Below, in pieces: positions 20,988 through 24,988 of a stretch of 42,042 nt of DNA. Source of the stretch: Candidatus Saccharimonadota bacterium (GTDB lineage: Bacteria; Patescibacteriota; Saccharimonadia; Saccharimonadales; JAICHO01); the NCBI GenBank assembly GCA_025924835.1, contig JAICHO010000005.1:1-42042 (forward strand), written 5' to 3'. Position 1 is the stretch's first letter. Every line of letters begins with the position of its first letter. A program made the position numbers and the translations under genes. Under the pieces are notes generated by a model. The model did not search any database. It had not been told where the DNA came from and was given only the letters and a program-made list of their open reading frames with translations.

Positions 20988-22163
20988 CTAATCAATAAAG
21001 ACTTCTTTAGCACTAGGAAAACCATTGTAGTCGGTGGCGCTCATGGTGGCCGAATAGCCGCCAACGCCGCCAATCAGGACAAAATCATCAATTTCCGCCT
21101 TATTCAGGGTCCGTGGCATTAATACTTCAGGGTCACCGGGTGCGGGCGTTAGCAAATCGGCTGATTCGCAGTTGTGCCCGACCACAACGTAGTCGTGCTT
21201 CTCAGAGCTATCACTTAGTACTGCTATAGGGTGCTGTGAACCGTACATAGCGGGCCGCATAAAATCATTCATACCGGTATTGAGTTTGATAAAGGTATAG
21301 CCTTCCGGTCCCGTATCCGTAATATCATCAATACGAGCAATGAGTAAGGCGATGTTGCCAACCATAAAGTGCCCAGGCTCTAGCTCCAGTTTGAGTTGCC
21401 GGCCAGTGGTCTCCGCAAAATGGGTAAGCTCACGGGAGATAATTTTTCCTATTTCTGACATATCCGCACCGTGCTCTTCTGGTACGCGAGCGATTTTAAA
21501 ACCACCACCTAAATTAATGATCTCAGCGTCTGGAAAATTTTTGATAAGTTCTAGACTAATCCGAGCTGCCTCTTGCCACACTTGCGGATCGCTTCCAGAA
21601 CCTATATGGGTATGCATTCGTTTAACCGTCAAGTTGTATTTTTTAAGCAATTCATGGACCTGTGGGATATATTCATGCCAGATACCAAAGCTGCTGGTCG
21701 GGCCGCCTACATTTACCTTAACCGAGTGCCCCGAACCAATGCCAGGGTTGATACGTATGCTAGCTTCACTACCCGGAAAAGATTTACCATAGATTTCCAG
21801 CTGTCGGAGTGACGTAGCATTAAAATGAACACCTAGTTTGACCAGCTCGGCAAGGTTATGGGCTAATTGTTGGCTAGTGAGTACAATTTTGGCTGGTTCA
21901 AAACCGGCAGCAATGGCCTGCTCAGCCTCATAGCCAGAACTAGCATCAATGCCGACCCCTAGCTCTTTCAAGACATGTAATATTTCAAGATTAGGGTTGG
22001 CTTTCATGGCATAATAAATTTGCACTCCATACGGAGCTGGCATATCTAACATTGCTTTGGCCTGCTCGGTTAGTTTTTCGCGGGAATACACAAACAACGG
22101 CGTTCCGTATTGCTTTGCCAATAGATTCACTTGGTCGTTACTTAAAAAGTTAGTACTAAACAT
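20988..22163 (-). CDS. lysA: Diaminopimelate decarboxylase-like PLP enzyme (fold III)
   Basis: YYAMKANPN (PLP Lys), HTHIGSG, NLGGGF, HNCESADLL catalytic Cys motif. Confidence 0.88.
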   Translation of the reverse strand: MFSTNFLSNDQVNLLAKQYGTPLFVYSREKLTEQAKAMLDMPAPYGVQIYYAMKANPNLEILHVLKELGVGIDASSGYEAEQAIAAGFEPAKIVLTSQQLAHNLAELVKLGVHFNATSLRQLEIYGKSFPGSEASIRINPGIGSGHSVKVNVGGPTSSFGIWHEYIPQVHELLKKYNLTVKRMHTHIGSGSDPQVWQEAARISLELIKNFPDAEIINLGGGFKIARVPEEHGADMSEIGKIISRELTHFAETTGRQLKLELEPGHFMVGNIALLIARIDDITDTGPEGYTFIKLNTGMNDFMRPAMYGSQHPIAVLSDSSEKHDYVVVGHNCESADLLTPAPGDPEVLMPRTLNKAEIDDFVLIGGVGGYSATMSATDYNGFPSAKEVFID

Positions 22164-22170
22164 CTGCTGA

Positions 22171-24138
22171 TTACTGAAATAATTGGAAGTTTTTAGTTAG
22201 TTGGTCGGCTTGGTCGTTGGGGGCTAAAAGAGTTATGCCGTAAAAAGTGGTGTCGCTGATAGATTGGTCTTGCAGCCGCTCGGTTATTTCTTGGTCGTTG
22301 GTGGTATCCTGCATTTCTTTTATAAAAACATGGTATGGAATGCCCGTCTTTTGGACTTCTTGGTATAGCTTGTGGAGTTCTTTATCGTCCGCACGTTTGA
22401 TAATTATGGCGTACTGCGGGTTGCGTGGAATCATTTGACCGTCACTGCTGACAAAGTAATCACCGCTGACTAGCTGTTCTTTTTTAACCTTGTTGCCGAT
22501 AATGGCGGACATATGGGCCACGGCATTTGTTGCCCGCCACGGTTCCAGCTCTTTATTAACCACGGCGACGATTTTTTTGGTAAAGTCCTGCGGGCGGGAA
22601 GCGTTAATGGCGCCCCTGGACTTAGCCTGACCGGCAAAAACTTCCGAATAAATCTCCTTGGTAATTTCATCCGTTTCGGCACGCAATTGCGGAAAGATTA
22701 CTCCCTCACGGGCTGTAACACCCTCAAAAAACCAAAAGTACCTCTCTGAGTAGCTGTAGCCGCAAGTGGGCGGCATGCCATATTCGAGCATTTCTACAAA
22801 ATCTATGTCCAGCATTTGGGCTTCTGCGTCGCCCGCATCCCTTAGCGCCTGTTGTTCCAAAAACCGATTTAGCTGGTCCAGGGGATCATTTAATTCTGAA
22901 TAGCCATTACCAAGCTCAGACCCGGCGATAACCGGATGAAACCGCTCTGAAACCCTGGGGTCTTCCTGCGATGCCTTGGCCAAGGGCGAAATTGCGGTCG
23001 GCTCCTGCACTAGCCAAAAAGGTCCCGGCTCCCCAGCCCGAATAATTTTCCAAACACCATCTAGCGCGCGGTTAACGTTCATCTCATCGGTCACGTACGC
23101 CTTGTGCTCCTTTAGAATACTCTTTAGTTGAGCTAAGTCAGGATTAAAAACATCCACCCCCATTTTTTCGCGCATAATATCCGCATATCTGACGACTGGC
23201 CACTTTTGGTCCAGGTTAACCTCAAAACCTCGTACATTAAATTGCAGTTTACCCCACGTTTCGTACGCTACATGCTTCATCATGGCTTCATAGAGCTCAA
23301 TACCCTGCTCGTAGTTCATATATGCGGCGTAGCTTTCAAAGGCGACGTGCTCCGGCAGGTGCTCGTCGCTGTAGTTTTCGTTCCTAAAGCGGGGGCCGAT
23401 GTCATAAACCCGTTCATAACCACCGCCGATGAGGCGCTTTAGCGGCAATTCATGGCTGATTCGCAAGTAAAAATCCTGGTCCAGGGCGTCCATATGCGTC
23501 ACAAACGGGTTGGCATCGGCGCCCCCCGTAGTGTGTTCTAGCACAGGCGTGTTAATCTCGGTAAAACCGTTTTGGTTTAAAAAGTCACGGGTGGCTTGCC
23601 AGAACTTGCTGCGGCGGATAAACCGCTCATAGACATCTTTATTAACATTAGTGTCCACATAACGGCGGCGCAGACGCTCCTCTTTGTTCGTCAGACCAGA
23701 CTGATCCGTGGGCATGGGTCGCAAACTCTTGGCTAGTAGCCTTAATTGCTGGACTTCTATGGATATCTCCCCTGTTTGGGTTTTAATGACCGGTCCACTT
23801 GCTTCTATAAAATCACCCGGGTCTAACAAATTAAGCTCTGCCATACCTAGATGGTTCTGGACCGGATCCAGAGGCTGGACAGTATCCTGCTTTAGGAACA
23901 GTTGCAGTTCGCCGCTAGCGTCCTTGAGTACAATGAACGCGATTTTGCCAAATTTACGTATGCTTTTAATCCGACCAGTGACGGTAACTGTTTGATCCTG
24001 TATGGTGTCAAATTGATCTGTTATTTGCTGAGTGACATGTGTTCGATTAGCTTTGGCTGGATATGGATTAATGCCAAGTTTTTTTAATTCATCCAATTTG
24101 CGCAATCGTTCGTCACGCAGTTCTTTAAGCGTAGCCAT
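22171..24138 (-). CDS. lysS: Lysyl-tRNA synthetase class II with C-terminal DUF2000-like extension
   Basis: OB-fold N-terminus, RRRYVDTNVNKDVYERFIRRSKFWQATRDFLNQNGFTEINTPVL, FRNENYSDEHLPEHVAFESY; extra ~136 C-terminal residues. Confidence 0.93.
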   Translation of the reverse strand: MATLKELRDERLRKLDELKKLGINPYPAKANRTHVTQQITDQFDTIQDQTVTVTGRIKSIRKFGKIAFIVLKDASGELQLFLKQDTVQPLDPVQNHLGMAELNLLDPGDFIEASGPVIKTQTGEISIEVQQLRLLAKSLRPMPTDQSGLTNKEERLRRRYVDTNVNKDVYERFIRRSKFWQATRDFLNQNGFTEINTPVLEHTTGGADANPFVTHMDALDQDFYLRISHELPLKRLIGGGYERVYDIGPRFRNENYSDEHLPEHVAFESYAAYMNYEQGIELYEAMMKHVAYETWGKLQFNVRGFEVNLDQKWPVVRYADIMREKMGVDVFNPDLAQLKSILKEHKAYVTDEMNVNRALDGVWKIIRAGEPGPFWLVQEPTAISPLAKASQEDPRVSERFHPVIAGSELGNGYSELNDPLDQLNRFLEQQALRDAGDAEAQMLDIDFVEMLEYGMPPTCGYSYSERYFWFFEGVTAREGVIFPQLRAETDEITKEIYSEVFAGQAKSRGAINASRPQDFTKKIVAVVNKELEPWRATNAVAHMSAIIGNKVKKEQLVSGDYFVSSDGQMIPRNPQYAIIIKRADDKELHKLYQEVQKTGIPYHVFIKEMQDTTNDQEITERLQDQSISDTTFYGITLLAPNDQADQLTKNFQLFQ

Positions 24139-24172: not shown

Positions 24173-24955
24173 TCAAGCAATATCCTCTGCCATACTCCAT
24201 AAGCTTTGAAATTGGGCACAAAATAACTGAGCCGCCGCCGGATTATCTGTCAAAATACTGAGCCGATTTTCCGTGTCCTCCGGACTACTAAATGTAATGC
24301 AAACTCTGGTATGATCGATGACAAAAAAATGAAACCCGCGTGCTTGTTTATAGTATCGTAGTCGTACACCAATGCGTTGCCATTTGCTGATAATATGCTG
24401 GTTACTAATCTTGTGCTGTTGGACAATGTGTTTGACACTTACCCCACGCTTAATTGTTGCCCGCTGGGTGCTTTCCAGCTTTTCAGAGAAGGCAATGCCA
24501 ATAGAATAAAGCCAAATCTCATGTTTTGCTTGATTAGCTAGCCGCAGATACGCGTCATATAACGCCTGCCGCCCAATAATAATTTCTAATTGGTCAGTTG
24601 AACCCTTCTGCGATATAACACTATGAATAAGTTGCTGCAGGTCTTTTTCTGTAGCTTGAAAAGAAGATTTTAAACCGGTGGATAATGGCAACGCCTCAAA
24701 AGCCCGTGGTCGTCCAGGCAAGCGACGCACCAAACGGTGTTTTTCCAAATCATAAAATAGTCGATACTCAGCCGAAGGAAAATCGTACGTATAGCTGGCT
24801 GCCCGTTGGGCAGTTAACTTGCCTTTTTGATGAAGCAGCTCATACAAATGAACGGCCTGAACACTAAGTCCAATTCGCCGTAAATACTCCTGTTCTTCCA
24901 GGCTGAGCCTGAACTTCTTGCTCGCCACAACTATTTCTTTCTGATTCTTCTGCAT
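24173..24955 (-). CDS. TrmB-like transcriptional regulator (HTH plus PLD-like sensor domain)
   Basis: EEQEYLRRIGLSVQAVHLYELLHQKGKLTAQRAA...YRLFYDLEKHRLVRRLPGRPRAFEALP resembles TrmB HTH; C-terminal part PLD-like; start MQKNQ at 24955. Confidence 0.65.
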   Translation of the reverse strand: MQKNQKEIVVASKKFRLSLEEQEYLRRIGLSVQAVHLYELLHQKGKLTAQRAASYTYDFPSAEYRLFYDLEKHRLVRRLPGRPRAFEALPLSTGLKSSFQATEKDLQQLIHSVISQKGSTDQLEIIIGRQALYDAYLRLANQAKHEIWLYSIGIAFSEKLESTQRATIKRGVSVKHIVQQHKISNQHIISKWQRIGVRLRYYKQARGFHFFVIDHTRVCITFSSPEDTENRLSILTDNPAAAQLFCAQFQSLWSMAEDIA

Positions 24956-24988
24956 ATATATTTTAACAAACAAATGTTAAAATATATA
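24955..24988. promoter_or_regulatory. Perfect 14-bp inverted repeat TATATATTTTAACA-AACAAA-TGTTAAAATATATA, candidate operator
   Basis: Arms 24955-24968 and 24975-24988 are exact reverse complements; lies between divergent regulator and methyltransferase genes. Confidence 0.75.

Follow-up and report, generated by a model that had tools for sequence, protein, structure and literature searches.

A lysyl-tRNA synthetase fused to a DUF2000 domain of predicted PTH2 fold in Saccharimonadota and other Patescibacteria, with a possible role in tRNA(Lys) editing

Architecture of the fused synthetase

The window, by which we mean the whole 42,042-nucleotide stretch of a Saccharimonadota contig analysed here, carries a single uninterrupted open reading frame for a 655-aa protein in which a flexible linker joins a class II lysyl-tRNA synthetase (LysRS) to a complete DUF2000 domain at its C-terminal side (Table 1). 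The initial annotation had proposed a LysRS with a C-terminal DUF2000 domain at 22171–22581, and both the architecture and the interval, which contains the profile match, hold: PF09391 matches the protein with E=2.9e-25 and a score of 89.2 bits (cut-off 25), placing the domain within the family.

Table 1 Features of the LysRS-DUF2000 locus in the window.
Feature	Coordinates	Strand	Residues of the 655-aa protein	Basis or remark
lysA (diaminopimelate decarboxylase-like)	20988..22163	-		7 nt downstream of lysRS-DUF2000; TIGR01048 E=2.5e-74, below equivalog cut-off
LysRS-DUF2000 frame	22171..24138	-		Single frame
DUF2000 domain, PTH2 fold	22177..22578	-	521-654	PF09391, AF2 model, Foldseek
LysRS-DUF2000 linker	22597..22692	-	483-514	pLDDT <50 at 483-513, full-length model
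Class II LysRS core (OB-fold + catalytic domain)	22678..24138	-	1-487	Pfam/NCBIfam matches and signatures
OB-fold PF01336			51-135	Pfam match
Catalytic domain PF00152 (class II)			152-483	Pfam match
TrmB/PLD-like gene	24173..24973	-		Upstream of lysRS-DUF2000, probably same transcript; weak Pfam matches

Signatures and a full-length alignment identify the protein as a predicted bacterial class II LysRS. The core contains RFRNE (residue 250), ISPLAK (383), NGYSELNDP (411) and the motif 3 sequence GYSYSERYF (460); NGYSELNDP and ISPLAK are intact, and together with RFRNE we take them to be the lysine-binding signatures of the bacterial class II enzymes. Identity to three unfused orthologues is 64–67% over the full-length alignment, and two NCBIfam lysine--tRNA ligase models score the first 487 residues just under their curated thresholds (464.8 bits for a threshold of 468, and 423.1 for one of 427.6). 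The fused enzyme is the only LysRS found in its genome (G000; 1.0 Mb, 95% complete), where neither a second class II LysRS nor a class I LysRS exceeded its cut-off. As had been supposed from the sequence, LysRS otherwise ends after motif 3: the 24 unfused relatives inspected have no additional domain and terminate roughly 15–40 aa past the 'FP' of motif 3. The extension is strongly similar to PF09391 and is not a generic C-terminal variant of LysRS.

In the full-length model (overall pTM 0.53) the linker is predicted with very low confidence, and DUF2000 appears as a tethered autonomous domain whose placement relative to LysRS is undefined. The AlphaFold2 model of the isolated domain is confident (pLDDT 94.9, pTM 0.87), and at E<=0.001 its only Foldseek matches in the PDB were Atu0240 (2gax; E=1.1e-11, TM 0.82/0.85) and archaeal PTH2 enzymes (E=5e-5 to 5e-4); named matches among viral models were also mostly PTH2. 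Together with an hhalign comparison of the DUF2000 and PTH2 profiles (E=1.5e-5), these models bear out the PTH2-superfamily-like fold that the initial annotation had suggested. Atu0240 shares both sequence family (E=3e-25 to Pfam DUF2000) and fold with the window domain, but is free-standing and uncharacterised, whereas the latter is fused to LysRS. The likeness to PTH2 itself (PF01981; 1xty, 2zv3, 1wn2, 1q7s) is more remote, with a TM of 0.55–0.58 by query length; His28 and the C-terminal Thr134/Leu139 of DUF2000 align with PTH2 invariants. The window domain differs from PTH2 in being fused to a synthetase, in occurring alongside a canonical Pth and in falling below the curated PF01981 cut-off of 23 bits (12.6 bits, E=0.16, for the full protein; 17.4 bits, E=0.005, for the domain alone).

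A further difference concerns the Lys, Asp and Thr that we take to be the catalytic residues of PTH2, which appear not to be conserved in DUF2000. The Lys position is R/K/Q21, the Asp position is, by our reading of the alignment, E94 in one DUF2000 subtype (EM) and T94 in another (STM), and the Thr is not kept; the alignment is remote, making this mapping moderately certain. Across 84 DUF2000 sequences the one invariant residue is Asn24 of the domain (N538 of the protein), and no universal acid/base pair was found. All other invariants are subfamily-specific sets, comprising, with N24, W20, H28 and D101 in the EM type (D101 in 53/53). Asp101 as a general rule of lysine recognition is weakened by STM-type domains that are without it and also sit on LysRS (L113, L114). 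The strict invariance of W20/N24/H28/D101 within a subfamily also bears on whether DUF2000 is a non-catalytic tRNA-binding or structural appendage. Synthetases often acquire tRNA-binding domains, and a flexible tether, 9–43 aa long in directly fused relatives where measured, would suit such a role; that invariance and the existence of free DUF2000s with operons of their own argue against it, and we consider it improbable.

Distribution and repeated origin of the fusion

Within the same order, DUF2000 occurs in 6 of 196 genomes, in every case on LysRS. Across 380 genomes of the phylum 35 have it, and in about 18 of these it lies in a long frame that also encodes LysRS; one frame-shifted case can be added (L089, where the LysRS-DUF2000 of G532 is broken by an apparent frameshift). 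All long-frame cases are LysRS by sequence, 10 of them confirmed by Pfam, and no other synthetase fused to DUF2000 was found in the 380 genomes. The fusion is thus recurrent across the phylum and, because it is found in independent genomes, an artefactual fusion, read-through or assembly error is ruled out. GTDB contigs were scanned for the EM-type domain with an 8-row alignment as query, a broader one of 20 rows being too diverse. The 36 loci returned come from Patescibacteria or are unnamed, with a single exception in a MAG assigned to Chlamydiia. The DUF2000 of this MAG (L156) is placed among CPR sequences, pointing to transfer or contamination. Two scans of viral contigs and a phage search yielded nothing to indicate a viral source. 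Seven genomes of the same order (G001, G005-G008, G010 and G014) are without class II LysRS and have a strong class I LysRS match (PF01921), a class I/II replacement within the order.

Two DUF2000 subtypes are found on LysRS, EM (the window, with FIKEMQDTTND) and STM (G125, G012), which fall in different well-supported clades. The fusion likewise occurs on two types of LysRS core, saccharibacterial and generic bacterial (L129, L093, L097), and although it spans both, the DUF2000 domains of L127 and L129 are sisters (98/86). The window DUF2000 is sister to that of G046 (support 100/99), whereas the two LysRS cores are placed apart: the window core has that of G013 as its sister, and the G046 core falls within a group of unfused enzymes. 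On well-supported branches the fused label changes at least 4 times in the core tree and at least 5 times in the domain tree, each change being a gain or a loss. These label changes and the discordant placement of the window and G046 rule out a single vertical origin. Because domain and core trees disagree and two subtypes and two core types are involved, fusion must have been repeated, with at least two separate events (EM and STM) needed.

Partners and neighbours of DUF2000

Pfam annotation of CPR LysRS revealed further architectures: LysRS-DUF2000-HD, LysRS-HD-DUF2000, LysRS-HD-B3/4-DUF2000 and LysRS-DUF2000-AlaX, the AlaX part of the last retaining its HxxxH and CxxxH motifs. At L107:4853-7861 a single 1002-aa frame joins LysRS and DUF2000 to an intact AlaX-like editing module, and in G012 an AlaX-like gene lies 11 nt after lysRS-DUF2000. 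HD-domain proteins recur adjoining or fused to LysRS-DUF2000 or LysO, sometimes with NIF3 (L137, L150, L151, L182, L090, L092, L095). The synthetase editing domains AlaX/tRNA_SAD, B3/4 and YbaK/INS are thus genomic partners of DUF2000 and are, like it, appended to or placed beside synthetases, but their folds differ from that of DUF2000. To our knowledge, standard descriptions give class II LysRS no such domain, and the enzyme is considered to have no domain for post-transfer editing. Mycobacterial LysX, a LysRS joined to a lysylphosphatidylglycerol synthase, likewise carries an extra functional module; in LysX, however, this module is unrelated, N-terminal and of the membrane, and the match of LysX to the window protein spans the LysRS part only.

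The order lysRS-DUF2000 to lysA seen in the window recurs in G125, where an aspartokinase-like gene (by eye), lysRS-DUF2000 and lysA are consecutive, and a gene similar in appearance (by eye) to the TrmB/PLD-like gene lies upstream of lysRS-DUF2000 in G046. The window's genome has the lysA-like gene but lacks a dihydrodipicolinate synthase (PF00701), leaving an isolated final step that perhaps works on scavenged diaminopimelate. It also has a second DUF2000, free and of the STM type (L003:6371-6811, contig C21), which ends 7 nt before leuS.

Among free DUF2000s in CPR, LysO is the most frequent neighbour family, in small samples with no background rate behind them. LysO exceeds its cut-off in 5/380 genomes and directly adjoins a DUF2000 in three of the five; genome-level co-occurrence has P=0.006, a measure that ignores adjacency and kinship. 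At L091, L094, L105, L145 and L182 LysO is split between two neighbouring genes, one coding for a short half (~90–117 aa) and the other for a half of ~200 aa. Other CPR neighbours include EamA transporters, LeuRS, ValRS, an AlaRS-like gene and an AlaX-like gene, and in G465 an AlaX gene precedes the free DUF2000. A conserved ORF of ~215 aa lies divergent from DUF2000 or lysO-DUF2000 (L105:4856-5533, L134:6720-7361, L131:5468-6118 and seven more); it has no Pfam match over cut-off and a weak ACT-like signal, and may be an amino-acid-responsive regulator.

Proteobacterial plasmids carry DUF2000-LysE (four records: two Paracoccus, Azospirillum and Rhodovulum), DUF2000-AzlC-AzlD and an Lrp/AsnC gene divergent from DUF2000, whereas several annotated plasmid records show no telling neighbour. 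The plasmid samples, too, are small; they were not selected by neighbours and have no measured background. DUF2000, YbaK and AlaX genes are consecutive on Legionella plasmids, and a B3/4 gene lies near DUF2000 in Pantoea. A bacilysin-type gene set accompanies DUF2000 on a Pseudomonas plasmid (L163, P. aeruginosa pNY8709), where DUF2000 lies ahead of genes for AMP-binding, branched-chain transaminase and BacA-like proteins, possibly a pathway for a non-proteinogenic amino acid with self-protection. Free DUF2000 is linked by operon, and fused DUF2000 by fusion, to synthetases and known editing factors. The neighbours share a theme: export of amino acids or their analogues, synthetases, and hydrolysis of mischarged tRNA. 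Such surroundings point to quality control of amino acids and tRNA.

Two readings other than editing draw on these neighbourhoods. In one, the main rival, DUF2000 would be a regulatory domain that senses lysine or an analogue, binding the free amino acid and tuning LysRS where the two are fused and, at other loci, exporters or regulators. The exporters LysO, LysE and AzlCD, the divergent Lrp/AsnC or ACT-like genes and the subfamily-specific invariants, which around one invariant Asn resemble a ligand pocket, are consistent with such a sensor; it leaves unexplained the joint fusion with B3/4 or AlaX and the YbaK-AlaX operon, we know of no amino-acid sensor with a PTH2 fold, and we rate it as rather unlikely. 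In the other, DUF2000 would recycle N-blocked aminoacyl- or peptidyl-tRNA(Lys) in the manner of Pth, kept beside the recharging enzyme. Its fold would fit, GNAT acetyltransferase genes lie near DUF2000 in Legionella and Pantoea, and E. coli that loses Pth starves for tRNA(Lys). A canonical Pth (PF01195) is nevertheless kept in all eight genomes tested, six of them with the fusion, which rules out replacement of Pth by DUF2000 and disfavours a Pth-like role, as does the apparent lack of conservation at the PTH2 catalytic positions; we regard such recycling as quite improbable.

A candidate editing domain for tRNA(Lys)

We propose, with about an even chance of being right, that the fused DUF2000 is a tethered post-transfer editing or deacylase domain acting in cis on tRNA(Lys). 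The proposal starts from the observed fusion, fold, LysRS-only recurrence and gene associations, from which we infer tRNA binding, hydrolysis and substrate. After charging, the domain would act at the aminoacyl end of tRNA(Lys), binding a wrongly charged molecule at its 3' end and hydrolysing the ester; the wrong residues might be lysine analogues (thialysine, ornithine) or small amino acids (Ser/Thr).

We favour editing because known PTH2-fold enzymes hydrolyse tRNA esters, because B3/4 or AlaX, known aminoacyl-tRNA editing domains, share a LysRS polypeptide with DUF2000, and because every synthetase fusion is to LysRS and has arisen repeatedly. The neighbourhoods argue in the same direction: AlaX in G012 and G465, YbaK-AlaX in Legionella, B3/4 in Pantoea, leuS beside the free DUF2000 of the window's genome, and the exporters. 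There are also precedents. CtdA, a free B3/4 protein, deacylates canavanyl-tRNA(Arg) and adjoins canavanine-use genes (PMC10018355), LysO exports both lysine and thialysine (PMC8498466), and ProXp-ST1/2 clear Ser/Thr-tRNA(Lys) (PMC11295145).

The strongest argument against editing is residue conservation, since Asn24 alone is invariant and a universal acid/base is missing; the changed Lys, Asp and Thr positions of PTH2 add to it. PTH2 enzymes act on N-blocked rather than free aminoacyl-tRNA, the exporter and Lrp/AsnC neighbours would suit a sensor equally, and most relatives in the order have no DUF2000. The hydrolysis or editing linked to tRNA that the initial annotation put forward is backed indirectly by the AlaX, YbaK and B3/4 fusions or operons and the restriction to LysRS, but not by the catalytic residues. 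More broadly, and with somewhat less confidence than an even chance would warrant, DUF2000 may represent a novel type of deacylase for aminoacyl-tRNA that combines a PTH2 fold with an altered catalytic site and was fused repeatedly to LysRS in Patescibacteria as a cis post-transfer editing site; free forms would serve together with exporters in resistance to amino-acid analogues.

DUF2000, PF09391 and COG4954 went unmentioned in the literature searched, which was open-access and did not extend to subscription papers and preprints. The recurrent fusion to LysRS alone, in polypeptides shared with editing domains, gives this domain of unknown function a specific and testable role, and its neighbours elsewhere suggest a device for proofreading or lysine homeostasis. 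The fusion also shows that bacteria with reduced genomes continue to devote resources to accurate or controlled decoding of lysine.
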